Source: Gemmatimonadota bacterium
Lineage (GTDB): Bacteria > Gemmatimonadota > Gemmatimonadetes > Gemmatimonadales > GWC2-71-9
DNA: 36,361 nt
Assembly (NCBI GenBank): GCA_003222205.1
Contig: QHVC01000110.1
Coordinates: 1-36,361, forward strand
Direction: 5' to 3'
Of the stretch, positions 15,159 through 31,102 are shown piece after piece; within the stretch, counting starts at the first letter, position 1; each line of letters opens with the position of its first letter. The position numbers and the translations under genes were made by a program. The notes beneath the pieces were generated by a model. It saw nothing but the letters and a program-made list of their open reading frames with translations. It was not told the origin of the DNA and searched no databases.

Positions 15159-15496
15159 GCGACCGGTTCGTCCTCCTCGCCCTCCGCGGCGACCGTGGCT
15201 CCCCCACCCCGCGCCGCGCGCACCGCGTGGCGCCGCCGCCGCGCCTCGAGCACCCGCCGCTGCAGCTCTTCCTTGACGGTGGAGACGGCCGCCTGGTCCT
15301 CGCGCGCGGCCGCCACCAGTTCACCCAGCTCGCCCGCCTTCTCGGCGGCGAGCGTCTTGAGGTCCTCGAACTTGCGCGACACTTTGCGTCGGGTCGTGGC
15401 GCCCGCCTCCGGGGCAAACAGGAACCCGACCACCGCGCCGACCGCGAGCCCGACGAGGAAGGCGCCGAACGACGTGCCGCCTTCGCGCTCGCTCAT
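15155..15496 (-). CDS. YtxH-domain membrane protein
   Basis: A 113-residue protein with a single glycine-rich transmembrane segment near the N terminus (FGAFLVGLAVGAVVGFLFAPEAGATTR). A charged coiled-coil-like helix and a basic/acidic tail follow. The span ending in LFAPxxG.xTR is the YtxH/GvpP signature; these proteins are stress-associated and their role is poorly defined. ATG 15496 overlaps the stop of the aldolase upstream (ATGA); a longer reading from 15688 would be a shadow of that gene. Confidence 0.82.
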   Translation of the reverse strand: MSEREGGTSFGAFLVGLAVGAVVGFLFAPEAGATTRRKVSRKFEDLKTLAAEKAGELGELVAAAREDQAAVSTVKEELQRRVLEARRRRHAVRAARGGGATVAAEGEEDEPVA

Positions 15497-16857: not shown

Positions 16858-16868
16858 ACGCCTTGAAA

Positions 16869-17651
16869 TTAGACCTCGTCCTCTTCGACCACCAGCCCGT
16901 CGTAGGCGGGGACGATGCCGGCGGGCAGCTGCGCGGCGAGCTCGGCGTGCGGGAGGTCGTGCGTCAAATGCGTGAGGAACGTGCGTCGCGCGCCGATCTG
17001 CTGGGCGACCGCGATCGCTTCGGGGATCGAGAGGTGCAGCGGGTGTGGCCGGGGCAGCAGCGCGTTCAAGACGAGGATGTCGAGCCCGACGAGCCCGCCG
17101 CGCGCGCCCACGGGCACATCTTTGGCATCGGTGAGGTACGCGATCCGCCCCACACGATAGCCGAATACGGTGCCGCCGCCGTGCGGAAGCGCGATGGGGA
17201 GGACCGCGACGCCCGCGACGCGGGTCTCGCGCCCCGGCTCGAGCACCTCCGCCACGAGCTCGGGGAGGATGGTGCCCTCGGGCGCCGCGGCGTGGCGGTC
17301 GAAGATATAGGGAAACTTCTCCGCCAACTCGACCATTGTGGCGGCGGGTCCGTAGGCCGGGAGTCCCGACCCGCGCTTGACCGAAATCGCCCGGAGGTCG
17401 TCGATCCCGTGCACATGATCCGCATGGGCGTGCGTGTAGAGCACGGCGTCCACCCGGTCGATGTGCGCGGCGAGGAGCTGCAGCCGCAGCTCCGGCGGCG
17501 TGTCGATGAGCAGGCGGCGCTCGCCCGCCTCAATCAGCGCGGCGCTGCGGGTGCGCCGATCACGCGGATCGCCCGACGTACAGGTGCGGCAGCGGCAGCC
17601 GATTTGCGGGACGCCGAACGACGTGCCCGTCCCCAGGAACACCAGCCGCAC
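16869..17651 (-). CDS. MBL-fold metallohydrolase, PhnP/phosphoribosyl cyclic phosphodiesterase-like
   Basis: A 260-residue metallo-beta-lactamase-fold hydrolase. The N terminus FLGTGTSFGVPQIGCRCRTC has Cys19, Cys21 and Cys24 (the extra zinc site of PhnP proteins). The metal motif is THAHADHVHGID (His74, His76, Asp78, His79), and further ligands are in LPHGGG, LTDAKD and THLTHD. PhnP hydrolyses cyclic ribose phosphates; non-phosphonate relatives such as this one may act on other cyclic phosphodiesters. No phn genes are nearby. It starts with GTG one base after the pyk stop, so the two are translationally linked. Confidence 0.87.
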   Translation of the reverse strand: MRLVFLGTGTSFGVPQIGCRCRTCTSGDPRDRRTRSAALIEAGERRLLIDTPPELRLQLLAAHIDRVDAVLYTHAHADHVHGIDDLRAISVKRGSGLPAYGPAATMVELAEKFPYIFDRHAAAPEGTILPELVAEVLEPGRETRVAGVAVLPIALPHGGGTVFGYRVGRIAYLTDAKDVPVGARGGLVGLDILVLNALLPRPHPLHLSIPEAIAVAQQIGARRTFLTHLTHDLPHAELAAQLPAGIVPAYDGLVVEEDEV

Positions 17652-17652
17652 G

Positions 17653-19080
17653 TCAGACTTCCTCGACCTTGATGAGGTTGGTGCTCCCCGACACCTCCCA
17701 GGGGACGCCGGCGGTCATGACGATGCGATCGCCCCGGCGGGCGAGGCCGCCTTTGAGAATGAGGTCGCGGACGACCTCCAGCATCGCGTCGTAGCTCGGC
17801 ACGCGATCGACGCGCACCGGCTGCACGCCCCACACCAGGGCGAGCTGCCGGTACGTCGCGACCTCGGTCGTGACCGCGAGGATCGGGACGGAAGGGCGCG
17901 TGGCGGCGACCGTGCGGGCCGTGAACCCTCCCCGGGTGAGCGTGACGATCAGCGGCGTCTTCAGCATCCGCGCCACGGCGGCCGTGCCCAGGGCGATGGC
18001 ATCCTCGACGGTGACGTCCTCGCGGATCGCGAGGCGGCGCTCGTCACGTCCCGCCAGGGCCTGCGGCTCCATCGCCCGGATGATCCGGTCCATGGCCTTG
18101 ACCGCTTCCACCGGGTAGTCGCCGGTCGCCGTCTCCGCCGACAGCATCACGGCGTCGGTGCCGTCCAGGATCGCGTTGGCCACGTCCGAAGCCTCGGCGC
18201 GCGTCGGCCGCGGATTCTGTATCATGGACTCGAGCATCTGCGTCGCGGTGATCACCGGCTTGCCGTGGCGGTTCGCTTCCCGAATCAGCCGCTTCTGAAC
18301 CAGCGGGACTTCCTCGAAGGGCAGCTCGACGCCGAGGTCGCCGCGCGCGACCATCACGGCATCGGAGGTGCGGAGGATGCGTTCCAGGTCGTCGAGCGCC
18401 GTGGCCTTCTCGATCTTGGCGACGAGCTTCACCGCCGGTGGCACCAGCGCCCGCAACCCCACCATGTCCTCGGCGCGACGCACGAACGACAGCGCCAGGT
18501 AATCCACGCCGTGCGCCACGGCGTCGGCGACGTCCTCGCGATCCTTGTCGGTCAACGCCGGCGCGCTCACCTGCAGGCCGGGGAGGTTCATGCCCTTGTG
18601 CGCCGTGAGCGTCCCGCCGTCGACGACGCGCGCCCACACCCGAGGGGGTTCGACGCGGGTCACCTCGACGGAGAGCAACCCGTCGTTCAGCAAGATGCGG
18701 GCGCCCACCCGCGCGTCCTGCGCCAGCTCCGCGTAGGTCGTGGGGAGCTCGTCCTTGCGCGCCACCGCCTCAGGGGCGAACACGACCTCCTGCCCGCGGA
18801 CGAGCTCCTGCGGCGCCTTGAGGGCGCCGACGCGGATGCGCGGCCCCTGCAGATCCATGAGCACGGCGATCGGCGCGCCGCGCGCCTCCGCGATGCGGCG
18901 CACGGCGGCGATCCATTGCCCGCGCACCTCCGCCGTGCCGTGGGACGCGTTCACGCGCACCACGTTGACTCCAGCGTCGACCAGGGCGGCGATGCGCTCA
19001 TCCGTTCCCGTCGCCGGTCCCAGTGTGGCGACGATCTTGGTGCGGCGGGTCGCCACCCCTCCTGAAGGCTCGCGATTCAT
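17653..19080 (-). CDS. pyk: Pyruvate kinase
   Basis: A 475-residue pyruvate kinase, converting phosphoenolpyruvate and ADP to pyruvate and ATP. TKIVATLGPAT starts the barrel, NASHG lies at 44-48, and the catalytic block VKLVAKIEKATALDDLERI is followed by VARGDLGVELP and the signature ITATQMLESMIQNPRPTRAE. A complete C-terminal allosteric domain ends the protein. It heads a run of eight genes on the minus strand. A putative promoter and three TGTGGAA repeats lie directly upstream. No PEP-utiliser domain is fused. Confidence 0.97.
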   Translation of the reverse strand: MNREPSGGVATRRTKIVATLGPATGTDERIAALVDAGVNVVRVNASHGTAEVRGQWIAAVRRIAEARGAPIAVLMDLQGPRIRVGALKAPQELVRGQEVVFAPEAVARKDELPTTYAELAQDARVGARILLNDGLLSVEVTRVEPPRVWARVVDGGTLTAHKGMNLPGLQVSAPALTDKDREDVADAVAHGVDYLALSFVRRAEDMVGLRALVPPAVKLVAKIEKATALDDLERILRTSDAVMVARGDLGVELPFEEVPLVQKRLIREANRHGKPVITATQMLESMIQNPRPTRAEASDVANAILDGTDAVMLSAETATGDYPVEAVKAMDRIIRAMEPQALAGRDERRLAIREDVTVEDAIALGTAAVARMLKTPLIVTLTRGGFTARTVAATRPSVPILAVTTEVATYRQLALVWGVQPVRVDRVPSYDAMLEVVRDLILKGGLARRGDRIVMTAGVPWEVSGSTNLIKVEEV

Positions 19081-19086
19081 TTCACA

Positions 19087-19115
19087 AGACTACCGCGACC
19101 CTGTGGAAAAGTCGA
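19087..19115 (-). promoter_or_regulatory. Putative promoter of the pyk operon
   Basis: TCGACT (19110-19115) and TAGTCT (19087-19092) are 17 bases apart on the minus strand. The -10 ends six bases from the pyk ATG, giving a leaderless transcript. The TGTGGAAAA element at 19102-19110 falls in the spacer. Confidence 0.4.
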
Positions 19116-19140
19116 AGCCGTGTGGAAGGCGTGTGGAAGG
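19101..19140. repeat. TGTGGAA repeats upstream of pyk
   Basis: The 11-bp unit CGTGTGGAAGG occurs twice in perfect tandem (19119-19129 and 19130-19140). A degenerate third copy, CTGTGGAAAAG, lies at 19101-19111. They fill most of the 60-base gap between marR and pyk and overlap the proposed promoter, as expected for a regulator's operator. The third copy is one base away from the DnaA-box sequence TGTGGATAA. Confidence 0.6.
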
Positions 19141-19602
19141 TCAGCGGACAATCTCGATGGTCCGCACCTCGAGACGCTGCCGGAACTCCTCGAGGAGGTG
19201 CACGGCCCGCTGCAACGCCGACGCGGGAAGGCCCTCGATGGTCCGGGCGGCGAGGCGCCGCTCGAGCTGGCCACAGCGCAGCAGGACGTCGAGGCCGTGG
19301 CGGGTCAGGACGACGCGCACGCCCCGGTCGTCGTCGGGGTCGGGGGTGGTCTCGACGAGGCCTTTGGATTCCAGGCGCTGGATGAAGGTCGTCGCGGCGG
19401 CCCGAGAAACGCCGAGCTGCCCGGCGATCTCGCTCGGGCGGGCGCCGTCCGGTCCTCCCTGGTCCACCGCCTGCAGCGCCGCGTGGGCGCGGTGCGAGAG
19501 GCCGTAGGCGCGGCATGCCTTGTCCCCGGCGCGTTGCAGCGCCTGGAACGCCGCGCGCAGGCCGCCGGTCAGCTGCAGCGCCAGCTCGGCACGATCACCC
19601 AC
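19141..19602 (-). CDS. MarR-family transcriptional regulator
   Basis: A 153-residue winged-helix regulator. The recognition region is RPSEIAGQLGVSRAAATTFIQRLESKGLVETTPDPDDDRGVRVVLT (~56-101), with the MarR wing signature DDDRGVRVVLT. The flanking helices form the dimer interface. MarR proteins repress divergent transporters and release DNA on binding a ligand or on oxidation. The start is GTG at 19600-19602. It is divergent from an ABC exporter and shares an 85-base spacer holding an 11-bp inverted repeat nine bases from its start, so autoregulation and exporter control are likely. Confidence 0.9.
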   Translation of the reverse strand: MGDRAELALQLTGGLRAAFQALQRAGDKACRAYGLSHRAHAALQAVDQGGPDGARPSEIAGQLGVSRAAATTFIQRLESKGLVETTPDPDDDRGVRVVLTRHGLDVLLRCGQLERRLAARTIEGLPASALQRAVHLLEEFRQRLEVRTIEIVR

Positions 19603-19610
19603 GGAAAAAG

Positions 19611-19639
19611 ATTAACATATTGACCATTAATATACTAAT
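19611..19639. promoter_or_regulatory. AT-rich inverted repeat, probable MarR operator
   Basis: ATTAACATATT (19611-19621) and AATATACTAAT (19629-19639) match as inverted arms at 9 of 11 positions around a 7-base spacer. The element is strikingly AT-rich against the surrounding DNA. It lies between divergent marR and ABC genes and contains TATACT (19631-19636), a good -10 for the ABC genes, so a bound repressor would block it. Confidence 0.65.
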
Positions 19640-19687
19640 CATTTCTCCGCCCACCGCAAGGCCCCGGAGAGCCTAGATTCCCCGGCC

Positions 19688-20407
19688 ATGATCGAGGTGC
19701 GCGGCCTCACCAAGCTGTACGGCTCGCTCGTCGCCGTGGAAGACCTCTCCTTTTCAGTCGCCCCGGGCGAAGTGCTGGGGCTCGTGGGCCCCAACGGGGC
19801 GGGCAAGACCACGACGCTCCGCAGTCTTGTCGGGATCGTGCGGCCGACGCGCGGCACGATCAGCATCGGCGGGCGGGACCTCGATCGCGACCCGGTCGGC
19901 GCCAAGCGCCAGCTCGCCTTTATGCCCGACGAGCCCCGGCTGTTCGAATACCTGACCGTGGAGGAACATCTGCGCTTCACCGGCCGGCTCTACGGCGTCC
20001 GGGATTCCGACGGCCGCATCCCTGCCCTGCTCCGGGAGCTGGAGCTGGCCGAGAAGGCGGGCGCGCTGCCGGACGAGCTGTCGCGGGGGATGAAGCAGAA
20101 GCTCGCGATCGCGTGCGGGTTGCTGCACGAGCCCAAAGCGCTGCTGTTCGACGAGCCGCTGACCGGGCTCGACCCCGCCGGGATGCGGCGCATGAAACAG
20201 ACGATCGTCGAGCGCGCGCGGCAGGGGGCCGCGGTGATTCTCAGCTCTCACCTGCTGCACCTGGTCGAAGAGGTGTGCACGCGCGTGCTGGTCATTCACC
20301 GCGGGCGGCTGGTGGCGATCGGGACCATCGCGGAGATCGTCGGATCGCGCCCCGACCTCCAGGGTCGCAGCCTCGAAGAGGTCTTCCTCGCCTTGACCGG
20401 CACGTGA
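19688..20407 (+). CDS. ABC transporter ATP-binding protein
   Basis: A 239-residue nucleotide-binding subunit of an ABC-2-type exporter. Walker A is GPNGAGKTT (~35-43), the Q-loop region reads FMPDEPRLFEYLT, the signature is LSRGMKQKLA (a common variant of LSGGQ), Walker B is ALLFDEPLTGLDP and the switch His is in SSHLLH. It overlaps the permease by GTGA. A purine run GGAGAG lies about 10 bases before the ATG. Cargo is unknown; divergent MarR control suggests toxicant or antibiotic export. Confidence 0.93.
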   Translation: MIEVRGLTKLYGSLVAVEDLSFSVAPGEVLGLVGPNGAGKTTTLRSLVGIVRPTRGTISIGGRDLDRDPVGAKRQLAFMPDEPRLFEYLTVEEHLRFTGRLYGVRDSDGRIPALLRELELAEKAGALPDELSRGMKQKLAIACGLLHEPKALLFDEPLTGLDPAGMRRMKQTIVERARQGAAVILSSHLLHLVEEVCTRVLVIHRGRLVAIGTIAEIVGSRPDLQGRSLEEVFLALTGT

Positions 20408-22143
20408 TCAGCGCCGCGCTGTACCTGTCGCGGCGCTCGCTGGCGAATGCGACCCGGCGCCGGTTGGCCCGGCTGCGCCAGCCCAAGTATCTGATCGGGT
20501 TCGCGCTCGGGGTGTTGTACTACTACTGGTTGATCGCTCGACCGCGCTCCGGCGCCGCGGGGGGCGCTGCCGGACTGCCCGGCGCCGGCGGCGAAGTGCT
20601 GGCGATCCTCGGGCTCACGACCTTCCTGTTGATGAACTGGGTGTTCGGCAGCTCGCGCAGTCCATTCGCCTTCACGCCGGCTGAAACTCACTATCTGTTC
20701 ACCGCACCCCTGACACGCCGCCAGGTGCTGGACTTCAAGCTGCTGCGCTCGCAGCTGCCGCTGTTCCTCTCGTCGCTGCTGTCGGTACTGATCTTCTCCG
20801 GCGGCCACTTTACTCCCAGCCGCATCGTGCGCGTGCTGGGCCTGTGGCTCGTCTTCTCGGCGCTGCAGATGCACTACGGGGTCGCCGCGCTGGTGCGGCA
20901 GAGCCTCGAGGAGCACGGCGTGACGGCTGTGCGCCGGCGGCTGGGTGTGATCACGGTCCTGACGGGGGTCGCGGTGGCCGTGGCGCTGATCCTGCGTCGC
21001 CAGCTCCCGGAAGTGCAGGCGGCCTTCGCCGCCGGTCCCGCGGCCGGCCTCGACGCCCTGGGAGCAATCCTGCATCGCGGCGTGCTCGGCGTGATCGTGT
21101 GGCCCCTGTCGGCGCTCGTTCGCCCGCTGCTGGCACCCGACTTGGCGACGTTCGCCGCCCGGTTGCCGGCGGCGTTCCTCGTCGTCGGGCTGCACTACGT
21201 GTGGCTGGTGCGCTCCTCACTCGCGTTCGAGGAAGTGGCGGTGGAGTCCGCCGAGCGGATGGCGCGGCGCATCGCCGCATGGCGCAGCGGCCGGCGGCCG
21301 CCCCCGAGCGAGCGCCGGTCCAAGGGCGCGCGGCGCTCGCTCGGCCGCCTCGCCCCGGTGGGCAGCCCGGCGCGCGCCATCGCCTGGAAGAACGTGCAAG
21401 CCGAGTGGCGCGGCTCCGGCGTGCGGCTCCCGGTGATCATCGTCCTGGGCGTGGCGGCCGTCGCGTGGGTGGCGAGCCTCGGCGCCGCCGCCGGCACGGG
21501 CATCCAGGTTCTGGCGACGCTGCTCCTCGTGTTCGCGGGGATGGCCGTCGTGTTCGGCCCGTACATCCTGCGCAACGACCTGCGCGCGGACCTCCTGCTC
21601 TGGGACCTGCTCAAGAGCTACCCACTGCGCGGGGCCGATCTCGTCGCCGGCGAAGTCTTGGGCCCGGTCGCGGTGCTCACGGGCGTCGCGTGGGGGTGCC
21701 TGCTGGCGGCCTTCGCCGCCTCGCTCGCGATCGACCTGCCGGGCTTCCCGGTTCTCGACCGCCTCGCCGCCCTGCTGGCCACCGCCATCGCGGCCCCCGC
21801 CTTCCTCGTCGTCATCACGCTGATCCAGAACGCCGCCGCCTTGGTCTTCCCCGCCTGGGTCACGCTCGGGCCGGGACGGGCGGCGGGCGTCGAGATGATC
21901 GGCCAGCGCATGCTCACCATGATCGGGAGCCTGCTCCTGATGCTGCTCGCCTTCCTCCCCGCCGCCGTGGTCGCGGCTGTCGCGGTGGCGATCGCCGGAG
22001 TCGCCGGAGTCGACGGCGTGTGGCGGGCGGTGCCGGGAGCGATCGGCTTGACGGTGACGCTGGGCTTCGAGGGGATGCTGGCGGTGGCGTGGCTGGGGCG
22101 AGTGTTCGAGCGGTCCGATCCGGCGGCAGAGCTCGGCGGCTAG
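20404..22143 (+). CDS. ABC exporter permease (ABC-2 group)
   Basis: A 579-residue polytopic membrane protein with roughly 10-12 hydrophobic segments, for example YLIGFALGVLYYYWLIA, VLAILGLTTFLLMNWVF and a C-terminal LMLLAFLPAAVVAAVAVAIAGVAG. A soluble segment of about 80 residues, rich in Arg, splits the halves near residue 290-330. The cytosolic motif HYLFTAPLTRRQVLDFKLLRSQ is the coupling-helix signature of putative ABC exporters. It starts at GTG 20404 within the ATPase stop codon. The frame is open further upstream, but that is a shadow of the ATPase. Its TAG stop abuts the stop of the convergent zinc-ribbon gene with no spacer. Confidence 0.85.
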   Translation: MISAALYLSRRSLANATRRRLARLRQPKYLIGFALGVLYYYWLIARPRSGAAGGAAGLPGAGGEVLAILGLTTFLLMNWVFGSSRSPFAFTPAETHYLFTAPLTRRQVLDFKLLRSQLPLFLSSLLSVLIFSGGHFTPSRIVRVLGLWLVFSALQMHYGVAALVRQSLEEHGVTAVRRRLGVITVLTGVAVAVALILRRQLPEVQAAFAAGPAAGLDALGAILHRGVLGVIVWPLSALVRPLLAPDLATFAARLPAAFLVVGLHYVWLVRSSLAFEEVAVESAERMARRIAAWRSGRRPPPSERRSKGARRSLGRLAPVGSPARAIAWKNVQAEWRGSGVRLPVIIVLGVAAVAWVASLGAAAGTGIQVLATLLLVFAGMAVVFGPYILRNDLRADLLLWDLLKSYPLRGADLVAGEVLGPVAVLTGVAWGCLLAAFAASLAIDLPGFPVLDRLAALLATAIAAPAFLVVITLIQNAAALVFPAWVTLGPGRAAGVEMIGQRMLTMIGSLLLMLLAFLPAAVVAAVAVAIAGVAGVDGVWRAVPGAIGLTVTLGFEGMLAVAWLGRVFERSDPAAELGG

Positions 22144-22512
22144 CTAGCAGGTCGCCGACCAGTCCACCGCGCCGGTGTGCCCGCAGCGCGGACAGCGCAG
22201 GGTCCCCGGCTTGCCCTCGAAGTCCTGCCGCTCGTGACACGCGGGGCAGACCGCGTAGGTCATCACGATATCGCTGCTGTTCGAGCCGCCCAGCGTGGGC
22301 CGCAGCACGCCCGTGCGCACGACCACGCTCCACGTCGTGGGCGGCTCGCTGCGCATGGTCACGTCCTCGCGCTTCAAGCGCACCTGCACGCCCTGGCGGA
22401 CGTCCACCACCACGTGGCCATCCGGCGTCTCGTCGACGACCGGATACCACGCGCCGCGGCGCAAAATATCCGCTACGCTGTCCGTGATGCGGGCCCAGCC
22501 CCGTCGGGCCAT
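22144..22512 (-). CDS. Zinc-ribbon protein, paralogue A (function unknown)
   Basis: A 122-residue protein I do not recognise. It starts MARRGWARITDSVADILRRGAWYPVV, has a beta-rich middle with VVVDVRQGVQVRLKRED and a WSVVVRT strand, and ends in a zinc ribbon (CPACHERQDFEG, then CPRCG) followed by a short tail with AVDWSATC. The same layout recurs in 23214-23606: LRRGAWYPVV, TYAVCPAC..RQ.F, L.C.RC and a W..T ending. ATG 22512 is preferred over ATG 22521 because the latter falls on the -10 TATCAT. Convergent with the ABC permease. It is divergent from the MOSC gene with a spacer of about 35 bases. Confidence 0.7.
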   Translation of the reverse strand: MARRGWARITDSVADILRRGAWYPVVDETPDGHVVVDVRQGVQVRLKREDVTMRSEPPTTWSVVVRTGVLRPTLGGSNSSDIVMTYAVCPACHERQDFEGKPGTLRCPRCGHTGAVDWSATC

Positions 22513-22519
22513 GGCCCCC

Positions 22520-22525
22520 ATGATA
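22520..22525 (-). promoter_or_regulatory. Putative leaderless -10 for zinc-ribbon gene A
   Basis: TATCAT (five of six consensus positions) lies seven bases before ATG 22512 on the minus strand. The second paralogue has an identical TATCAT five bases before its own ATG, which supports both calls. Confidence 0.5.
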
Positions 22526-22536
22526 GCACGTTTAGG

Positions 22537-22542
22537 TAAATT
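22537..22542 (+). promoter_or_regulatory. Possible -10 for the MOSC gene
   Basis: TAAATT lies five bases before the ATG at 22548. No -35 is evident, and the sequence upstream is shared with the minus-strand promoter of zinc-ribbon gene A, so the two divergent promoters are interleaved. Confidence 0.35.
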
Positions 22543-22547
22543 GCGTT

Positions 22548-23126
22548 ATGCGCGATGTCGGTGCGATCGTCCGGCTCCAGATCCAACGCAGCTCCCTGAA
22601 AACGGGGGAGAAGCCGCACCGCCGCTACGACCCCGCCCCGCTGCTCTCGGTGGAGCGACTCGCCGTCACGCCCGACGGCGTGCTCGGCCTGAGTGACGGC
22701 GACGCCTGGCTGGTGGACGTCCATCATCGGGCCCACCCGCAGACCAAGAACGAGGACGGGCTCCACGGCGTGTCCGTGGGCTTCACCGCGCATTACGACG
22801 CGATGCGCGCGCGCTTCGGCGATCACCTCACGCCGGGCTGCGCCGGCGAAAACCTCCTCGCCGTCGCCGCCCGGCGGCTCGGCTACGACGAGCTGGCAGG
22901 GGGCATTGCCGTCGTGGACCGGGACGGCCGGGAGCTCGTCCGGCTTCAGGTGCTCCAGGTCGCCCACCCGTGCCGCCCGTTCACCGGCTGGGCGCTGGGC
23001 GGCACGGTCGAAGCCCAGGTGCTCAAGGAGCACCTGCAGTTCTTGGACGACGGGATGCGGGGGTTCTACTGCCGCGCCACGGGGACCGGGATCGTGGCCG
23101 TCGGCGACCGTTTGGTGTTGCCCTAG
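22548..23126 (+). CDS. MOSC-domain protein (molybdenum/iron sulfur-carrier fold)
   Basis: A 192-residue MOSC-fold protein. Family features are the start VGAIVRLQIQRSSLKTG, the GLHGVSVGFTAHYDAMRARFGDHLTPGCAGENLL block, and the conserved Cys in VAHPCRPFTGW (~residue 143), the predicted sulfur or cofactor ligand. MOSC domains occur in molybdenum cofactor sulfurases and in mARC and YiiM-type molybdoenzymes; single-domain forms like this are poorly characterised. It lies alone on the plus strand between two minus-strand zinc-ribbon paralogues. Its stop codon is inside the left arm of an inverted repeat. Confidence 0.85.
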   Translation: MRDVGAIVRLQIQRSSLKTGEKPHRRYDPAPLLSVERLAVTPDGVLGLSDGDAWLVDVHHRAHPQTKNEDGLHGVSVGFTAHYDAMRARFGDHLTPGCAGENLLAVAARRLGYDELAGGIAVVDRDGRELVRLQVLQVAHPCRPFTGWALGGTVEAQVLKEHLQFLDDGMRGFYCRATGTGIVAVGDRLVLP

Positions 23127-23217
23127 GAAAGCTCTGGATGTGCCCGCCGGGCGCCGTCGCGTATCGCGCCCTAGGCCCCACCCCCAGCGTCACATCCTAG
23201 GTGCAGAGGTTTCCTAG
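23123..23217. repeat. Long inverted repeat spanning convergent stop codons; possible structured RNA or bidirectional terminator
   Basis: Left arm 23123-23142 (CTAGGAAAGCTCTG then GATGTG) pairs with the right arm at 23191-23217 (CACATC, a 7-base bulge CTAGGTG, then CAGAGGTTTCCTAG). The outer 14 positions pair with one G-G mismatch and the inner six pair perfectly. Inside, GGGCGC and GCGCCC (from about 23149 to 23172) can form another stem, giving a branched fold. Both stop codons of the convergent genes lie in the arms. There is no T-run. CCTAGG occurs three times within 80 bases. Confidence 0.65.
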
Positions 23218-23606
23218 CTCAGCGTCTCGTCCCAGGACAGCGGGGCGATGGTGTGGCAGCGGTCGCAGGTGAGCTCGCTCGTCTGGGCGGCAAACGCCTG
23301 CCGGTGCCTGCAGGCGGGGCACACGGCGTACGTCAGCGGGAACACGCGGCCGACGCGCTCGATCATCCGCGGCTCGCAGCGCACGATGGTCCAGCGCTCG
23401 GGTGGGTGGTAGCGGATCTCGAGCAGGCGGCGGTCGCAGGGGATGTTCTGCCGGTTGACGTCCAGCACGACGATGTTACTCGAGGAGATGCGGACGACGG
23501 GATACCAAGCGCCGCGCCGCAGGGTGTGAGCGCCCGCCGGCCCGACGCGGGCCCAACCCTTCGGCTGCAGCCGCGTCGGTGTGAGGACCCGGGCCGTATC
23601 AACCAT
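23214..23606 (-). CDS. Zinc-ribbon protein, paralogue B (function unknown)
   Basis: A 130-residue paralogue of the gene at 22144-22512. Shared features in the same order are WARV, LRRGAWYPVV, a beta segment (NIVVLDVNRQNI), a W.IVR strand, TYAVCPACRHRQAF, LTCDRC (a four-Cys zinc ribbon), and a terminal SWDETLS. The N terminus is 10-15 residues longer than paralogue A and has no signal peptide. The family is not one I can name. It converges on the MOSC gene, its stop lies in the right arm of the inverted repeat, and its TATCAT -10 element is five bases before the ATG. Confidence 0.7.
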   Translation of the reverse strand: MVDTARVLTPTRLQPKGWARVGPAGAHTLRRGAWYPVVRISSSNIVVLDVNRQNIPCDRRLLEIRYHPPERWTIVRCEPRMIERVGRVFPLTYAVCPACRHRQAFAAQTSELTCDRCHTIAPLSWDETLS

Positions 23607-23611
23607 GCCGA

Positions 23612-23617
23612 ATGATA
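23612..23617 (-). promoter_or_regulatory. Putative leaderless -10 for zinc-ribbon gene B
   Basis: TATCAT lies five bases before the ATG at 23606 on the minus strand. A TTGATT occurs 14 bases upstream of it, closer than a normal -35. The matching element before paralogue A supports the call. Confidence 0.45.
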
Positions 23618-23664
23618 AACTCGCGCACTGGAATCAAGAGTGACTGAAGTCACACGGCGGGAAT

Positions 23665-23723
23665 GTCAGACGTCAGACGTCAGACCTCAGTATGTGACCT
23701 CTGACCTCTGAAGTCTGACGTCT
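23665..23723. repeat. GTCAGACGTCAGAC repeats forming a hairpin downstream of nrdJ
   Basis: Direct repeats GTCAGAC/GTCAGAC/GTCAGAC occupy 23665-23690. Arms 23675-23690 and 23708-23723 pair with a single mismatch over 16 positions around a 17-base loop that contains TGACCTC repeats. It is directly 3' of the nrdJ stop on the minus strand and may act as a terminator or 3' stabiliser; no U-tract follows. The rest of the 120-base gap to zinc-ribbon gene B holds its promoter. Confidence 0.7.
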
Positions 23724-23726
23724 CCA

Positions 23727-26216
23727 TCACCCGCACTCTGAGAACCCGCACACGTGGCACTTCACGCACCCCTCCACGTAGGCCAGCTGCGATCCGCAAT
23801 CCGGGCAGGCGCCCACGAAGTCCTGGGCGCTGTTGCGCTCGCGCTGCGCGGCGGTGCCCTCGGGACTGAGGGGCGGCGGGGGGACGGCCACGATTTCGCG
23901 CGACGGGACCCCGGGAGCGCCGGCGAGGAAGTCTTGCTGGACGCCCTGCTTGTCCTGCATCCAGCGCTCGATGGCGATCCCGATGGCATCCGGCACGGAT
24001 AGCACCTTGTTGGGCCCGAGCCCGACGGCCCGGTCGGACGAGATGCCGCGGAGCTGGCGATGGACATCCCGGAGGGGCACGCCGGCACGCAGGGCGAGCG
24101 AGATAAGGCGGCCGATCGCCTCCACGTCCGCCATCAGGGGCGCCCCGGCTTTGCCGAGGGAGATGAAGACCTCGAACGGCTGTCCCTTGTCGTCCTCGGT
24201 GATGGTCACGTACATCGTGCCGAGCGGGGACTCGAGGCGCCGGGTCACGCCGCGCAGCGCATCCGGCCGCGACCGCACCGCCCGGCGCTGGAGGTTCTCG
24301 GCTTCGACGTCGTGGAGCTGGGCGCGGGTGCGCTCCAGCTCGGTCTCGAGCTCGGCGATGCGGCCCAGCGCTTCGGCGAGCGCGCGCTGGCCGTCGTCGG
24401 TCGCGGCCCCGCTCTTCCCCTGCGCCTGCTCCTGCACCTTCTTGGCCGTCGCGCCAGTCGACAGCACCTGGAACTCTCGGGCGCCGTCGCGATAGACCGT
24501 CACGCCCTTGCAGCCCAGGTGATAGGCCAAACGGTAGATCTGCTCGACGTCGTCCTCGGTCGCCTCATGCGGGAAGTTGCAGGTCTTGGAGATCGCCGAG
24601 TCGGTGAACTCCTGGAACGCGGCCTGCATCCGGATGTGCCACTCCGGGGTGACGTCGTGCGCGGTGACGAACACGCGCTGCCACTCGGCCGGCACCTCGT
24701 CGAAGTGGATGTGGCCGGCCTCGGCGATGCGCTGCACGAGGGCGTCGGAATACCACCCCTCGCGCCGCGCGATAGCGACGAACTCCTCGTTCACATCCGG
24801 CATGAGGACGCCGGCCTGATTGCGCATGAACGCCACGGCGAACAGCGGCTCGATGCCCGAGCTGCAGCCGGCGAGGATCGAAATCGTGCCGGTCGGCGCC
24901 ACGGTCGTGAGGTTACAGTTGCGGAGGCGACGCATCGGGCGGATGCGCTGGCCGGCTGCGTCCCGCGCGCAGGTCGCGTCGGGGCCCCAGATGGAGCGCT
25001 CCCACTCGGCGAAGACGCCGCGCTGCTCGGCGAGCTTCTCGGAGGCTTTCTTGGACTCTTCGTCCACGAATTCCATCAGGCGGCGGCCGAGCGCCACGCC
25101 CTCCTCGGAATTGTACGGAATGCCCAGATGCACCAGGAGATCCGCCCAGCCCATGATCCCCAGACCGATGCGGCGGATGCGTTTGGCGAGATCGTCGATC
25201 TCGGCGAGCGGGTACTTGTTCGCGTCGATGACGTTGTCGAGGAAATGGGTGCACAGGTGCACGGCCGTGGCGAGGCGGTCCCAGTCGAGCTTTCCGTCGC
25301 GAACATACAAGCCGACGTTGATCGACCCCAGATTGCAGACGTCGTAAGCGAGCAGCGGCTGCTCCCCGCAGGGGTTCGTCGCTTCGTAGCCGCCGAGCTG
25401 CGGCACCGGGTTGTATTGATTGGCCCGGTCCACGAAAAACACGCCCGGCTCGCCGGTCTTCCACGCCCCGTGCACGATCTTCCGAAACACTTCCCGCGCC
25501 TCGAGCTGGCCGACGGCCTCCCCCGTGCGAGGATGGATCAGCTCGTAGCTGGTCCCGGCCTCGACCGCCGCCATGAACCGGTCGGTCACGGCCACCGAGA
25601 TGTTGAAGTTCGTCACCTGGGTGAGGTCGTCCTTGCAGGTGATGAACTCCAGGATGTCGGGGTGGTCCACCCGCAATATCCCCATGTTGGCACCGCGCCG
25701 CGTGCCGCCCTGCTTCACGACGTCGGTCGAGGCGTCGTAGAGCTTCATGAACGAGACGGGCCCGGAGGCGACTCCCATCGTGGAGCGCACGACGTCGTTC
25801 TTCGGCCGCAGGCGGGAAAAGGCGAACCCGGTGCCACCCCCCGACTGGTGCACGAGCGCCATCGCCCGCAGGGTGTCGTAAATGCCGCTCTTGCCGTTGG
25901 AGAGGGCGTCATCCACCGGGAGGACGAAGCACGCCGACAGCTGGCCCAAGGGACGGCCGGCATTCATCAGGGTGGGCGAGTTCGGCATCCACACCCGCGT
26001 GGCCATCAGCTCGAAGAACGTCTCCGCCAGGGTCTCGACCGCCTTACGGGAGGCCCCGTAGGAGGCATCCGGCTCGGCCACGGTGCGCGCCACGCGCCAG
26101 AAGAGGTCCTCGGGAGACTCGGCCGGGCGCCCCTGCTCGTCCTTCACGAGGTAGCGGCGTTCCAGCACCGTGATGGCGTTGGGCGTGAGATCGAGTTTTC
26201 GAGGAGCAGCGGTCAT
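23727..26216 (-). CDS. nrdJ: Vitamin B12-dependent (class II) ribonucleoside-diphosphate reductase
   Basis: An 829-residue adenosylcobalamin-dependent reductase, making deoxyribonucleotides without an iron radical cofactor or oxygen. An N-terminal module precedes the 10-stranded barrel, with VWMPNSPTLMNAGRPLGQLSACFVLP (Cys96 in the redox pair region), HQSGGGTGFAFSRLRP, and the active-site block NPCGEQPLLAYDVCNLGSIN (Cys on the finger loop). After the barrel come a coiled-coil-like linker (~615-650), a TSCPD domain (SLGKAGAPLMADVEAIGRLISLALRAGVP), and a C-terminal zinc ribbon CPDCG..CVKCHVCG carrying the redox cysteines. No intein is inserted. It stands alone with its own promoter and has no nrdR neighbour. 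Confidence 0.96.
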   Translation of the reverse strand: MTAAPRKLDLTPNAITVLERRYLVKDEQGRPAESPEDLFWRVARTVAEPDASYGASRKAVETLAETFFELMATRVWMPNSPTLMNAGRPLGQLSACFVLPVDDALSNGKSGIYDTLRAMALVHQSGGGTGFAFSRLRPKNDVVRSTMGVASGPVSFMKLYDASTDVVKQGGTRRGANMGILRVDHPDILEFITCKDDLTQVTNFNISVAVTDRFMAAVEAGTSYELIHPRTGEAVGQLEAREVFRKIVHGAWKTGEPGVFFVDRANQYNPVPQLGGYEATNPCGEQPLLAYDVCNLGSINVGLYVRDGKLDWDRLATAVHLCTHFLDNVIDANKYPLAEIDDLAKRIRRIGLGIMGWADLLVHLGIPYNSEEGVALGRRLMEFVDEESKKASEKLAEQRGVFAEWERSIWGPDATCARDAAGQRIRPMRRLRNCNLTTVAPTGTISILAGCSSGIEPLFAVAFMRNQAGVLMPDVNEEFVAIARREGWYSDALVQRIAEAGHIHFDEVPAEWQRVFVTAHDVTPEWHIRMQAAFQEFTDSAISKTCNFPHEATEDDVEQIYRLAYHLGCKGVTVYRDGAREFQVLSTGATAKKVQEQAQGKSGAATDDGQRALAEALGRIAELETELERTRAQLHDVEAENLQRRAVRSRPDALRGVTRRLESPLGTMYVTITEDDKGQPFEVFISLGKAGAPLMADVEAIGRLISLALRAGVPLRDVHRQLRGISSDRAVGLGPNKVLSVPDAIGIAIERWMQDKQGVQQDFLAGAPGVPSREIVAVPPPPLSPEGTAAQRERNSAQDFVGACPDCGSQLAYVEGCVKCHVCGFSECG

Positions 26217-26323
26217 GCTAGCTCGTCCCTTCAGGGTAGAGCGTTTCGTCCGACCCGGGAATGGAGAAATTTAACCAGCCTGCTTCGGGACCTACGAATG
26301 ACGGCCGAGAAGCGCGGAAGGGC

Positions 26324-26352
26324 AAGGTAGGCACGCGGGGTGAGCGAATCAA
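26324..26352 (-). promoter_or_regulatory. Putative promoter of nrdJ
   Basis: TTGATT (26347-26352) and TACCTT (26324-26329) are separated by 17 bases on the minus strand. The leader would be about 100 bases. An AAGGGA purine run lies before the ATG. I looked for a cobalamin riboswitch in this leader and the adjacent upstream sequence and saw no GCCACTG box. The remaining 26217-26398 spacer holds nothing else I can name. Confidence 0.5.
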
Positions 26353-26398
26353 GACTTGGGGAGGATGCAGCGGGGAGGCCGTCTCGCGGGAATTCACA

Positions 26399-26941
26399 TC
26401 ACAAACCTGTTCGCAGGGGCGGAAACCGTCCCCCGCGGTGCCGCTCCGCCTCGACCACGTAGTGCTCCCATGTCCCGCGGATGCGGGCGCGGAGCCCCTC
26501 GTCGACCGTGCGCGCCACCCGCCCCGGCACGCCCATCACGAGGGACCCCGGCGGCACCTGCAACCCTTCCGGGAGCACCGCCCCGGCCGCGACCACGCTG
26601 CCGCTGCCGACGCGCACCCCGTTCAGGAGCACGCTCCCCATGCCGATCAGGCAGTCGTCTTCGACGGTGCACCCGTGGATCACGGCGCGGTGGCCGATCC
26701 CGACCCGGGCGCCGATCAACGCGGGCAGCCCCGCGTCGACGTGCACGATGGTGCCGTCCTGGATGTTGCTCGCCTCGCCGACGACGATCCGGTCCATGTC
26801 GCCCCGCAGCACGGCGCCGTACCACACGCTGGAGCGGGGGCCGAGGGTGACGTCCCCCAGCACGATGGCGCCGGGGGCGACGAACGCCGTCGCATGGATG
26901 TTCGTTATTGCCTCACGGGCGGGAACTGCCACTGCACCCAC
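26399..26941 (-). CDS. Gamma-carbonic-anhydrase-like hexapeptide-repeat protein
   Basis: A 180-residue left-handed beta-helix protein of the YrdA/PaaY/gamma-carbonic-anhydrase family. Imperfect hexapeptides run from IHATAFVAPGAIVLGDVTLG. The three metal histidines are present in NIQDGTIVHVD and GHRAVIHGC, and the end is a short helix (RIRGTWEHYVVEAERHRGG). Function may be carbonic anhydrase or acyl-CoA-related hydrolysis. The start is uncertain: GTG at 26939-26941 (or 26932) is used because no later ATG keeps the first repeats. It overlaps the kinase stop by 37 bases, suggesting co-expression with the kinase, which lies upstream on the same strand. Confidence 0.85.
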   Translation of the reverse strand: MGAVAVPAREAITNIHATAFVAPGAIVLGDVTLGPRSSVWYGAVLRGDMDRIVVGEASNIQDGTIVHVDAGLPALIGARVGIGHRAVIHGCTVEDDCLIGMGSVLLNGVRVGSGSVVAAGAVLPEGLQVPPGSLVMGVPGRVARTVDEGLRARIRGTWEHYVVEAERHRGGRFPPLRTGL

Positions 26942-28800
26942 GCTTCGACCGCCTCCCCGTTCTTCTGGGCCGGGTTCCAGCGCAGGTTCTTCGCCATGTC
27001 GACGGCGGCGTCGTTGAACGTCGCCACGTTGGAGGGGACGTAGACGCGGGCCTCGAGCGTGCGGCCGTCCCGGGAAACCTTGAGCAGCAGGATCGCGGGC
27101 CGGGGCGTCACGGGCGCGTCGGCCCCGACCGGGATGAAGGTCGGGGTAAGCGGGATGGGCCGCGTGTCGAAGCAGATGTTGTCCGTGTTGTAGGCCGGGC
27201 CGGGCTGGTCGCAGGGGCCAACCGTGGGGCCGGCGGGAGTCGCCACCTGGAGGTTGACGGTCAGCACGGTCGTCTCCCCGGCGGTGATCGGCACCTGCCG
27301 ATCATACGCCAGATACCCTGCGGCGCGCACCGACACGCGGTGCGTGCCGGCAGCCAGGTCGGTCTGCCGCGCAGCGAGCGGTTGGCCGTCGAGCGTGACG
27401 CGCGCCGTGGCGGGCACGTTCTGGAGCAGCAGCTTGCCGGTGCCGGCGGCGGGGGGATGCGCGGCGGTGGTATCGTGACCCGTGGCCCCGGCGCCGCTGT
27501 CGGTCGTCTCCCCCGTCGAGTCACCGCCGCCGCCGCCGCCGAGCGCCACGTGGCTCGAGTCGCTGGTCGCGGTCGTGTCCGGCCGCGCCCCGCCGCCGAA
27601 CAGTCCGGTCAGGAGCCCCTTCTTGTACGCGAACAGGCCCCCCGCTCCAACGATGACGGCAACCATCACGACCCAGACGCCCACCGCCGCAGCGGCCGAC
27701 TTCTTGTGCCGGGGCGCGAACGCCGGCTCGGCTCCGGCCACCAGGCCCGCCCCCCCTGGCTGGCGGGGCAGCGGCGTCGAGGGAGGCAGGCCGATGCGGG
27801 CGCCCGAGAGCGAGGGGATGGCGCGCGTGGCCGCGGTGGAGATTCCTGCCGAGATGTAGCCGCCCCCTCCTTCGAGGACCGCGACCAGCTCTTCCGCGCT
27901 CTGGAAGCGCTCTTCGGGTTTCTTGGCCATCATCTTGCGGACGATCTCGAACAGCTCGCGTTTCTCGGCGCTGTCGAGCCGCGGCACCGGCAGCTCCTCC
28001 ATGATGTGCTTGTAGCCGATGGAGAAGGAATCCTCCCCGTCGAAGGGGACCACGCCGGCGAGGCACTGATAGGCCACGACGCCGAGCGAGTACAGGTCGC
28101 TGCGGCCGTCGAGCTGCTGCGCGCGCGCCTGCTCGGGACTCATGTAGTGCGGCGTGCCGATCGCCATCCCCGTTCCCGTGAGCTTGCCGCCGACGGCGGC
28201 CTTGGCGATCCCGAAGTCGGTCACCACCGCCTGCCCGTGCTCGTCGAACATGATGTTGTCGGGCTTGATGTCGCGGTGCACGATCCCGCTCTTGTGGGCG
28301 TAGGCGAGGGCGCGGCCGACTTCGATGAGCGTCTTCTTGATCTCGGGGACCGGCAGCGCTCCGCGCGTGCCCAGCACGGCGGAGAGCGGCTTGCCGCGCA
28401 GGAACTTCATGACGAAGTAGATGACGCGGCCGTTCTTCCCGACGCGGTAGATGGGGATAATGCTGGGGTGCTCGAGCTTGGCGGCGGTGCGGGCCTCGCG
28501 CTGGAAGCGCTCGACGAACTCCTTATCGAAGGCGAGGGAGAACGGCAGCACCTTGATCGCGACGTCGCGCTCGAGCTGTTTCTCGCGGGCCCGGAAGACG
28601 ATCGCCATCCCTCCGCGTCCCAGCTCCTGGAGGATCTCGTACTCCTCCTTGAGCTGGTCCCGGACCATGTCGATCTCGGTGAGCTCCTGCTGGACGCCCT
28701 GGACCTGCCCGAGGGGGGTCGTGGCGGTCAAGTCCATCCCGCAGGATCGACAGAACTTGAAATGCTCTTCGTTCTGGGTGCCGCAAGTGGGGCAGTACAT
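26905..28800 (-). CDS. Ser/Thr protein kinase with zinc ribbon, transmembrane span, PEGA and TonB-like C terminus
   Basis: A 631-residue Hanks-type kinase. Residues 3-20 are a zinc ribbon (CPTCG, CRSCG). The kinase domain spans ~54-315: glycine loop LGRGGMAIVF, Lys83, catalytic HRDIKPDN (Asp177) and DFG at 195-197. A Ser/Pro-rich linker leads to one transmembrane helix (~370-391). Outside are a Gly/Ser/Thr spacer, a PEGA domain (~455-518) and a C-terminal TonB-type domain (~565-628, ending LRWNPAQKNGEAVEAWVQWQF). The kinase is cytosolic, and the PEGA and TonB-like parts are periplasmic, perhaps sensing envelope state. The ATG is preceded by GGAG and a strong promoter. Confidence 0.9.
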   Translation of the reverse strand: MYCPTCGTQNEEHFKFCRSCGMDLTATTPLGQVQGVQQELTEIDMVRDQLKEEYEILQELGRGGMAIVFRAREKQLERDVAIKVLPFSLAFDKEFVERFQREARTAAKLEHPSIIPIYRVGKNGRVIYFVMKFLRGKPLSAVLGTRGALPVPEIKKTLIEVGRALAYAHKSGIVHRDIKPDNIMFDEHGQAVVTDFGIAKAAVGGKLTGTGMAIGTPHYMSPEQARAQQLDGRSDLYSLGVVAYQCLAGVVPFDGEDSFSIGYKHIMEELPVPRLDSAEKRELFEIVRKMMAKKPEERFQSAEELVAVLEGGGGYISAGISTAATRAIPSLSGARIGLPPSTPLPRQPGGAGLVAGAEPAFAPRHKKSAAAAVGVWVVMVAVIVGAGGLFAYKKGLLTGLFGGGARPDTTATSDSSHVALGGGGGGDSTGETTDSGAGATGHDTTAAHPPAAGTGKLLLQNVPATARVTLDGQPLAARQTDLAAGTHRVSVRAAGYLAYDRQVPITAGETTVLTVNLQVATPAGPTVGPCDQPGPAYNTDNICFDTRPIPLTPTFIPVGADAPVTPRPAILLLKVSRDGRTLEARVYVPSNVATFNDAAVDMAKNLRWNPAQKNGEAVEAWVQWQFPPVRQ

Positions 28801-28824
28801 CCCGGCTCCGGAGGGACGCGCGAT

Positions 28825-28854
28825 AACTTAGGGACCGCCGCGCGGGGGTGTCAA
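28825..28854 (-). promoter_or_regulatory. Promoter of the kinase gene
   Basis: The perfect -35 hexamer TTGACA (28849-28854) and TAAGTT (28825-28830) are 18 bases apart on the minus strand. They give a leader of about 17 bases with a GGAG ribosome site before ATG 28800. It lies just after the stop codon of the upstream gene. Confidence 0.65.
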
Positions 28855-28855
28855 C

Positions 28856-31102
28856 TTACGGGTGCGCGACCACCTGGAAACGCCGCGTCCGGACGAGCGC
28901 GCGGCCGCTGGCCGGATCGGTCAATCGTACCGTCAGCACGTAGTCCCCGCGGCTCACACCGCGCAAGTCCACCCCGCGGTGCACGCGCGTCGCCGGTCCG
29001 TCGGCGACGGCGTCGAAGGCGAGCAGCACCGGGGGATGCCGCCCGCCGAACAACCCACGGATCACCCCGAGCAGCGATGTCCCGCCCAGCTTCTGGAGTC
29101 GCACCTCCGTGTGATACGCGGCCCCGCGCTCCAGCCCGTACACCTCGTAGTAGAGCTCGGCGACGGAGCCCTCCGGGAAACGGTCCAAGGGATTGAGGAA
29201 GACGGTATCGTCGGGGAGCACCCACAGCAGGCCGGAGCCCGTCCGTCCCACGACCACATCGCTCGCGGCGAAGTGGCGGCCATCCAGTTGCTCGACCGTC
29301 AACGAGTCGCGGCCGACGATTTGTCCCGCGTCGCGGTCTTCGGTGGTGACGAGCACGCGGTAGCGGTACTCGCCGGGCGGGACGGGCACCGTCAGGCGAC
29401 CCGTGAGGTAGGCCGCGCCGCGCAGCGCCTCACGGGACGAGAAGACGCGCATGGTGTCGAGCTGCGCTACGACGTTGTCGCCGCTGTCGGCGACGAGGAT
29501 CCGGAACCGCAAGGGGTAGAGGACGCCCGTGCTCCCTGGCTGCGGGGCGAGCTCCGCGGCCGGGATCGCGAAGACGACGTGCAGCTCCTGGCCCCCGCCC
29601 GGCCCGGTCGCCCGGCGGCCCATCACGAAGTCGTTGACGATCAGGTCGAGCGCGACCGGGAAGCGCTGCCGGTAGCTGTCGGTCGAGGTGCCCAGCCGGA
29701 TCGCGCGATGGCCGCGCTCGCGCTCGTCCGTCGCGCTGCGCAGCCCCATGCGGGTGTACACCGGGTCTAAGTCAGCTCGGGACTCCCACAGCGCCGCGGC
29801 GGCCGGCGCGGACCCGGTTCGCTGGAAGCGCGCGGCCCACCCCATCGCGTCCAGTACGCTCTCGACCAGCTTGTAGTCCTGCACGTCTTCCCGCGACACG
29901 AAGTGGAAGATCAGGTTCCCCTCCGGGCGCCGGTACAGCCAGCTCTCGTTCGGCTCGAGCCCGGCCCCTACCGTCCCCGTGCCCGTAAAGAACGCGCGCC
30001 GGTCCGGCTCGCCGTGGCGCAGATAGATGATGCCGCGGTCGTCGAACTCCTGCTGGTCGGAGCGGTACACCTCGGTGATGTCGTAATGGCGGTGGCGGGA
30101 GACGAGGCGGAAGTTGCGCCAGGCGTAGAACCAGCGGCGGAAATGCTCGGCGAGACGCTCGCCCGGCTCACGCGCCTCCACCACATCGCGGCGCACCCAG
30201 AAGCGCTCCAGCCACGCCGCGCGGTCGGCCGGCGCCCGCAGCCCATCGAACGCCGCGAGCTCGGCGGTGTCGGCGACGTAGCCCAAGTCTCGGTGGTACA
30301 TCCCGAACGCGCCCACCGAGGCGCCGGCGCGGGCCCCGGCGAAGTAGGCACGCCAGCCGTCCGCCGGACGCCGCGCCCAGTAATAGGTGCGGGCCAGCTC
30401 GTACAGGCCCACGGCAGAGTCGCCGCCGACGTCGATGTACGCCTGGAAGCCGACGATCGCCGAATCGGCCTCGCCCACCTCTCGCTCCACGCGGCCGCGC
30501 GCGAGCTGTACGTCCGGGACGCGCCCCGCCGGCGACGCCGCGGCGAGTCGCACCGCCTCGAGGACGACCTGGAGACGCGCGTGGATCCGCTGGGTGAGCG
30601 CGGTCGTGGCGAGGTCGATGGTCGCGCGCGCGAAGGCCGGATCCGCCTGCACCGCTCGCGCGAACGCCGCCGCCGCTTTGGAGAGGTAGTCCTTGCCAAG
30701 CTGCTGTCGCAGGTTCTCGATCGCGAGCACCGAATGCTCGCCCTGCGCCAGCTCGGCCAGTCCCAGCCCGTACCAGGGGTACGGCCAGTCGGGCCGGAGC
30801 TCGGTAGCCCACTCGAATTCTCCCGCCGCGTCGTCGTAGTGCTTCTTGGAGTTGGCGAGCTCCCCCAGCCGGTAGGCGACGAACCCCAGCCGGAGGTGGA
30901 TGAGAGGGTTGTCGCGGTCGTGCTTGGCCACGTCGATGGCCCGCGCTTCCAAACGCAGCAGCGCCGTCGAATCCGTGACGGCTCCGAGCGAGTCGCGCAG
31001 CCCCTCGATGACGCGGCGGTCGGCGGGGTCTTGGGCAGACAGTCGGAACGTCGGACCGGCGGACAGGAAGGCGAGGAACAGCAGGCGGCGCGGGTGCCTC
31101 AT
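28856..31102 (-). CDS. GWxTD-domain exported protein
   Basis: A 748-residue exported protein. An N-terminal signal peptide (MRHPRRLLFLAFLSAG, cleaved near LSAQ) is followed by TPR-like helices (~60-260) and the GWxTD region, with FDGLRAPADRAAWLERFWVRRD, YRSDQQEFDDRGIIYLRHGEPD and WLYRRPEGNLIFHF. Beta-rich domains fill the last 250 residues (for example GDYVLTVRLTDPASGRALVRTRRFQVV). GWxTD proteins are widespread in Bacteroidota, Gemmatimonadota and Acidobacteriota with unknown function. ATG 31102 is chosen because a TATAAT -10 lies nine bases upstream; the longer reading from 31132 would include the promoter. A repeat of the GTCGGAC kind overlaps the signal-cleavage codons. Confidence 0.8.
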   Translation of the reverse strand: MRHPRRLLFLAFLSAGPTFRLSAQDPADRRVIEGLRDSLGAVTDSTALLRLEARAIDVAKHDRDNPLIHLRLGFVAYRLGELANSKKHYDDAAGEFEWATELRPDWPYPWYGLGLAELAQGEHSVLAIENLRQQLGKDYLSKAAAAFARAVQADPAFARATIDLATTALTQRIHARLQVVLEAVRLAAASPAGRVPDVQLARGRVEREVGEADSAIVGFQAYIDVGGDSAVGLYELARTYYWARRPADGWRAYFAGARAGASVGAFGMYHRDLGYVADTAELAAFDGLRAPADRAAWLERFWVRRDVVEAREPGERLAEHFRRWFYAWRNFRLVSRHRHYDITEVYRSDQQEFDDRGIIYLRHGEPDRRAFFTGTGTVGAGLEPNESWLYRRPEGNLIFHFVSREDVQDYKLVESVLDAMGWAARFQRTGSAPAAAALWESRADLDPVYTRMGLRSATDERERGHRAIRLGTSTDSYRQRFPVALDLIVNDFVMGRRATGPGGGQELHVVFAIPAAELAPQPGSTGVLYPLRFRILVADSGDNVVAQLDTMRVFSSREALRGAAYLTGRLTVPVPPGEYRYRVLVTTEDRDAGQIVGRDSLTVEQLDGRHFAASDVVVGRTGSGLLWVLPDDTVFLNPLDRFPEGSVAELYYEVYGLERGAAYHTEVRLQKLGGTSLLGVIRGLFGGRHPPVLLAFDAVADGPATRVHRGVDLRGVSRGDYVLTVRLTDPASGRALVRTRRFQVVAHP
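31036..31064. repeat. GTCGGAC-type repeat inside the GWxTD gene
   Basis: CAGACAGTCGGAACGTCGGAC followed by CGGCGGAC lies across the signal-peptide end of the gene and codes GPTFRLSAQ. It is a diverged copy of the words in dnaX and in the threonine aldolase gene, again in the frame giving a PT(V/F)R peptide. Confidence 0.55.

Follow-up and report, generated by a model that had tools for sequence, protein, structure and literature searches.

In the window, that is, the whole stretch of 36,361 nucleotides that we analysed, a plus-strand gene for a stand-alone MOSC-domain protein lies between two minus-strand genes for members of one family of small proteins, P0001 and P0002, the second of which directly follows a ribonucleotide reductase gene. 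The features of the locus are the following.

22144..22512, minus strand: P0001, family member of 122 aa, divergent to the MOSC gene
22520..22525, minus strand: TATCAT, a −10-like hexamer 7 nt before the P0001 ATG
22537..22542, plus strand: TAAATT, a −10-like hexamer 5 nt before the MOSC ATG
22548..23126, plus strand: P0003, stand-alone MOSC-domain protein of 192 aa with a conserved cysteine (HPCRPF); Pfam PF03473
23214..23606, minus strand: P0002, family member of 130 aa, on the same strand as nrdJ and directly downstream of it
23612..23617, minus strand: TATCAT, a −10-like hexamer 5 nt before the P0002 ATG
23639..23654, minus strand: Crp-type palindrome TGTGA-N6-TCAC, centred at −41.5 if the −10 element is set at −12 to −7
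23727..26216, minus strand: ribonucleotide reductase, class II type (NrdJ, our own assignment); Pfam Ribonuc_red_lgC, lgN and TSCPD

The sequence-only reading had described two minus-strand genes with an ordered set of common motifs on either side of a plus-strand MOSC gene, and the gene coordinates confirm this layout. P0001 and P0002 are paralogues over their full length, with 38% identity across 119 aligned amino acids (E = 2e-23) and an alignment that spans WAR to the terminal W..T, so that their likeness reaches beyond a generic zinc ribbon. The middle gene is also what it had been taken for, as its product scores 34.9 bits against Pfam MOSC (PF03473), for which the cut-off is 22.7. P0001 and the MOSC gene are divergent, with starts 35 bp apart, and orthologues of P0001 at the same place make up 28 rows of our tree. 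The C-terminal tail of NrdJ, read from the translation, holds six cysteines. A search of positions 15000–30000 for Rfam RNAs, riboswitches included, returned none at the gathering score. An ABC exporter pair (19688–22143) lies between P0001 and a MarR gene in the window only, among the 24 loci compared.

Purifying selection acts on all three genes. Third codon positions are the most variable (against 30 orthologues of P0002, 27 of P0001 and 26 of the MOSC gene), and in the five lowest-dN comparisons printed for each gene dN/dS was about 0.05–0.11 for P0002, 0.24–0.30 for P0001 and 0.18–0.27 for the MOSC gene, which makes P0002 the most strongly constrained of the three.

Predicted fold and spread of the family

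AlphaFold2 models of P0001 and P0002 (pLDDT 86.0 and 87.8, pTM 0.77 each) place six strands within the first 66 and 76 residues, respectively, and a ribbon behind them. Both proteins carry two CxxC pairs with modelled strands around each, as in a zinc ribbon fold. In P0002, residues 16–66 superpose on SH3 domains (best Z 7.0, rmsd 1.7, 50 residues aligned; a Z within the range of common arrangements), and a Foldseek search against solved structures returned a KOW domain of Spt5 first (E = 0.042). The models thus suggest a small SH3-like barrel followed by a C-terminal CPxC/CxxC zinc ribbon, and our best guess is that such proteins act as nucleic-acid-binding adaptors.

The genome of the window holds at least seven copies of the family on five contigs, as found by genome search, and five of the seven lie away from the MOSC locus. 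Among related genomes the family is present in 16 of 41, with a maximum of 19 matched stretches in one relative (18 by profile). With P0002 as query and a threshold of E 1e-6, it was found in 45 of 395 genomes of the phylum, all of which belong to the same family or order as the genome of the window. Matches in the named collection amount to 73 loci, nearly all from Gemmatimonadota metagenome assemblies. Three loci carry other labels, namely L111 (Acidobacteria), L114 (Myxococcota) and L144 (Neptuniibacter), and each of these assemblies has one family match; since the NrdJ of L114 is 82% identical to that on a Gemmatimonadota contig, the L114 contig is likely mis-binned.

Curated collections gave little. 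P0001 reached the cut-off of no Pfam zinc-ribbon family (the best was Zn_ribbon_SprT, 18.7 against 28.1 bits), nor did P0002, and an alignment of 68 members run against Pfam and NCBIfam at E 0.01 yielded only generic ribbon-type and scattered weak matches; for P0001 and P0002 themselves no match came up to its cut-off. At E up to 0.01, none of P0001, P0002 and P0003 matched a PADLOC defence protein or a PHROGs phage family; tblastn with family alignment A2 returned no viral relatives at E 1e-3, and a fold search of BFVD nothing at E 0.001 or better. Literature searches, which covered open-licence PMC, turned up no description of this family or of a MOSC–zinc-ribbon pair, in keeping with the earlier impression that no system of this form has been described. 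Judging from these searches, the family is undescribed, lineage-restricted, multi-copy and part of no curated family.

We characterized the family in a sample of 164 distinct copies, counted once matches shorter than 75 residues had been dropped; it is enriched in P0002-like copies, with which the genome scan was seeded, and some of its contigs are cut short. The CPxC..CxxC pattern is kept in 160 of them, and in two (L074_5036 and L138_6079) serine takes the place of one ligand. No cysteine other than the four of the ribbon is conserved across the family, which also carries conserved aromatic and arginine residues. Most copies are basic (median pI 9.5, with 135 of the 164 above 8.5), and P0001 is just mildly so (pI 8.4). 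The near-constant set of zinc ligands would suit redox-sensing zinc-thiol switches or chaperones, a reading that we regard as very unlikely, given that no further cysteine is conserved, that one ligand is replaced by serine in the two copies named above and that the barrel would be left without explanation.

Dispersed copies mostly stand alone: a gene on the same strand lies 80 nt or less upstream of the domain in 9 of 86 cases, and by neighbourhood most copies appear to be separate transcription units. Among the rows listed we saw no neighbour common to them; the genes that do recur there are family members, response regulators, Crp-like regulators and kinases, mainly in orthologous clusters. 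At L118, L123 and L135, four to five family copies sit within about 5 kb amid response-regulator and Crp-like genes.

Promoter elements and a Crp-type site

The TATCAT hexamer 5–7 nt before the ATG of both family genes had been noted as a common mark of the pair. The element is indeed present at both, but it is not specific to them: TAAATT stands in the same place before the MOSC gene, and such hexamers are common in this genome. In 357 kb of the genome of the window, 29 TAnnnT hexamers lie 5–9 nt before the starts of 270 genes called by script, against about 5 expected from a background, taken further upstream, of 1.0 per offset. TAnnnT is found at the −10 place of P0001 in all 29 aligned loci, as judged by reading, and for the MOSC gene it lies 4–7 nt ahead of the start in 27 of 27. 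Hexamers right before start codons are the pattern of leaderless transcripts, and by this comparison TATCAT is the general leaderless-type −10 element of the genome.

What does distinguish P0002 is the palindrome TGTGA-N6-TCAC, which we found upstream of it in 31 of 32 loci (L080 departs from it by a single base), and upstream of neither P0001 (0 of 29) nor the MOSC gene (0 of 27). A search of both strands of 325,587 bases gave 31 matches to the palindrome, 30 of which were the sites upstream of P0002. A TAnnnT hexamer follows 22–23 nt behind it in 27 of 31 loci, the other four having none at that spacing; if the hexamer occupies −12 to −7, the centre of the palindrome falls at −41.5 or −42.5. 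Positions around −41.5 are those of class II Crp-type activators. The genome of the window encodes one clear Crp-family regulator, whose helix reads RETVSR and presumably recognises TGTGA, as in Crp. These observations point to P0002 being switched on, probably, from a leaderless promoter by a Crp-type activator. The site is confined to the close group of P0002: of twelve further loci (L106–L117) only L115, itself a member of that group, has it, and it is absent from the more distant nrdJ-linked loci. Across both strands a regulon scan returned 18 one-mismatch sites, where the reversed pattern gave 4; their contexts were mixed, with no clear theme. At L164 (G000:C199, 1501–1555) the Crp-type palindrome stands shortly before what looks by eye like a glycoside-hydrolase gene, possibly with a promoter of the same type.

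nrdJ, the MOSC gene and the conserved block

A dedicated system of a MOSC enzyme and its zinc-ribbon proteins had been proposed for this locus, and the linkage is real on the side of the MOSC gene. MOSC of this type occurs in 30 of the 395 phylum genomes; all 30 carry the family, and in all 30 the MOSC gene lies within 163 bp of a family gene (Fisher p = 4e-34 for the co-occurrence, in related genomes that are not independent). The family as a whole does not share this linkage: 15 of the 45 family-bearing genomes have no such MOSC, and among the 164 copies MOSC lies within 1.7 kb in 63 and is missing from 101, nrdJ lies within 1.6 kb upstream in 62, and 90 have neither nearby. Nor does the presence of the family follow the molybdenum cofactor, as had been suggested as a check. 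We detected moaA (PF06463) in 36 of the 41 relatives, in the genome of the window and in six of the seven relatives with this MOSC (the seventh, G010, is 56% complete), and it gave no match in the family-bearing G026 (95% complete), G028 (100%) and G038 (71%).

The surroundings of the locus bear on how this adjacency should be read. The clade of the window has the order kinase, hexapeptide protein, nrdJ, P0002, MOSC (reverse), P0001, MarR, pyruvate kinase and hydrolase, which holds with few exceptions in the 24 loci compared. In more distant genomes nrdJ is followed by a family gene and then by ispG, in many cases a sirtuin gene, and pyk (we named the ispG and sirtuin genes from their translations), with MOSC in between in some and absent from others, and L219 has the nrdJ-ispG-...-pyk block without the family. 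There are thus three stepwise states: the block without the family, with the family, and with both family and MOSC. The family gene, the MOSC gene and P0001 look like later additions to an old block, in which nrdJ is the older neighbour of the family gene. Since the surrounding housekeeping genes are also conserved, the linkage is weakened as evidence for a joint function; it largely reflects vertical inheritance, and the adjacency says little about function. In L235 (G014:C32:58692-73500) the block is rearranged, with about 10 kb between nrdJ and the P0002 orthologue.

A dedicated partnership, in which the zinc-ribbon proteins supply the MOSC enzyme with metal, sulfur or electrons, or act as its regulators, would account for the strict association with the family (30 of 30) and for the divergent arrangement of P0001 and MOSC, and such a co-occurrence could mean a real partnership. 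We nevertheless judge it quite improbable, for besides the copies and genomes without MOSC, the family-bearing genomes without a moaA match and the equal conservation of the flanking genes, the family offers no spare redox pair, because only the four ribbon cysteines are conserved, and the MOSC gene is broken in 2 of 28 loci with a MOSC match among L075–L105, where the family genes stay. In these two (L088, 6382–6878; L094, 4649–5187) the MOSC gene is split into two pieces and both family genes are present. The MOSC gene is most likely an inherited neighbour, not a proven partner.

Linkage to nrdJ raises a second possibility, that P0002 partners or regulates the reductase encoded just upstream. 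In the group of P0002, nrdJ lies just upstream in 39 of 47 rows, in L109 the family domain begins about 40 nt after the end of nrdJ, and of the three genes P0002 is under the strongest constraint. We still consider this reading unlikely: nrdJ is present in 37 of the 41 relatives and the family in only 16, the neighbourhood is conserved in general, P0002 has its own predicted promoter in the clade of the window, and more than half of the sampled copies lie near neither gene. Because both match TiaS, we considered whether the ribbon of the family is related to the tail of NrdJ and rejected the idea, as hhalign gave the pair a probability of 46 and an unrelated kinase ribbon 88. In L107, L113 and L116, nrdJ and the family gene are separated by a gene of 60–61 aa whose C-terminal half looks hydrophobic by eye.

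The pair had also been attributed to a duplication around the MOSC gene, or to insertion of MOSC between tandem copies, an origin compatible with any function. In a tree of 69 rows, P0001 groups with L064, L054, L133, L134, L122 and L127 (96/87), six paralogues without a MOSC neighbour, and P0002 with other nrdJ-linked copies (88/83). Forcing P0001 together with the close group of P0002 cost 14 log units and was not rejected (AU p = 0.124), and this, with the two tandem copies followed by MOSC in L108 and L110, leaves some room for duplication. Placing P0001 with all nrdJ-linked copies gave p = 0.037, and grouping it with the second copy of the tandem pairs in L108 and L110 was rejected (p = 6e-9). 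The tree favours separate origins of P0001 and P0002, and we see the duplication as improbable.

Proposed role and comparison with known systems

In the reading we prefer, to which we give about an even chance, the family consists of small, mostly basic barrel-and-ribbon proteins, expressed mainly as separate units, which bind nucleic acid or its machinery; MOSC is mainly an inherited neighbour, and P0002 is activated by Crp. One old branch of the family lies just downstream of nrdJ, and a stand-alone MOSC gene would have settled beside this branch, in the opposite direction, in some of the genomes. P0001, a copy from another branch, sits on the far side of the MOSC gene in the clade of the window. 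Through barrel and ribbon the proteins may bind nucleic acid, or the transcription or translation machinery, the paralogues possibly differing in target or timing, and a Crp-type regulator would activate P0002 from its leaderless promoter. No partnership with MOSC would be involved. A point against a binding role is that neither a basic charge nor a zinc ribbon is peculiar to nucleic-acid-binding proteins.

A bolder version, which we put forward as a long shot, is that the family are order-specific, gene-selective transcription or translation factors, with barrel and ribbon bound to RNA polymerase, ribosome or mRNA, expanded to about 20 paralogues in a lineage rich in genes of the leaderless type, and that the nrdJ-linked copy and the MOSC enzyme form a locus for nucleotide supply and base detoxification.

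An unnamed family of small proteins, matched 7 to 19 times in each of several genomes, represents an annotation gap in Gemmatimonadota, a common soil phylum, and the conserved Crp-type operator offers a concrete regulatory handle. For MOSC biology the locus calls for caution, as tight and repeated adjacency is here largely explained by an inherited gene block.

Several known systems share parts of this picture. NrdR is a small zinc-ribbon repressor found near ribonucleotide reductase genes, with an N-terminal ribbon and then an ATP-cone. The family resembles it as a small zinc-ribbon protein near such a gene but carries its ribbon C-terminally and, at E up to 1, matches no ATP-cone. The cysteine-rich C-terminal tail of NrdJ (PMC5704485) also has CxxC..CxxC, with six cysteines there and four in this family.

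As for P0003, E. coli YiiM is a stand-alone MOSC protein that confers hydroxylaminopurine resistance (PMC5818509), YiiM and YcbX reduce 6-hydroxylaminopurine (PMC5818509, PMC3831636), and an invariant cysteine is a feature of the MOSC family (PMC5818509). P0003 is likewise a stand-alone protein above the MOSC cut-off, and one PC[RK]PF cysteine, present in all 32 sequences aligned, fits this invariant residue and is the putative counterpart of YiiM C119/C120; against solved MOSC structures P0003 had no sequence match at E up to 1. YiiM has an extra C-terminal helix bundle, and the passages of PMC5818509 consulted describe no zinc-ribbon neighbour for it. By analogy, P0003 is probably a molybdenum-dependent reductase akin to YiiM and YcbX, and a link with dNTP supply by NrdJ is an attractive idea that the neighbourhood alone suggests.

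The ribbon itself finds its closest sequence counterpart in the PDB in archaeal TiaS (4rvz), the top match of the family profile (TiaS 340–378, E = 0.005), which shares CxxC..CxxC, a likeness of the generic ribbon only. KOW and SH3-like barrel proteins, such as the KOW domain of Spt5 and SH3 domains, differ in having no family match by sequence, in the zinc ribbon that here follows the barrel and in a Z below 8, and what they would share with this family is the predicted small six-stranded barrel, onto which residues 16–66 superpose.
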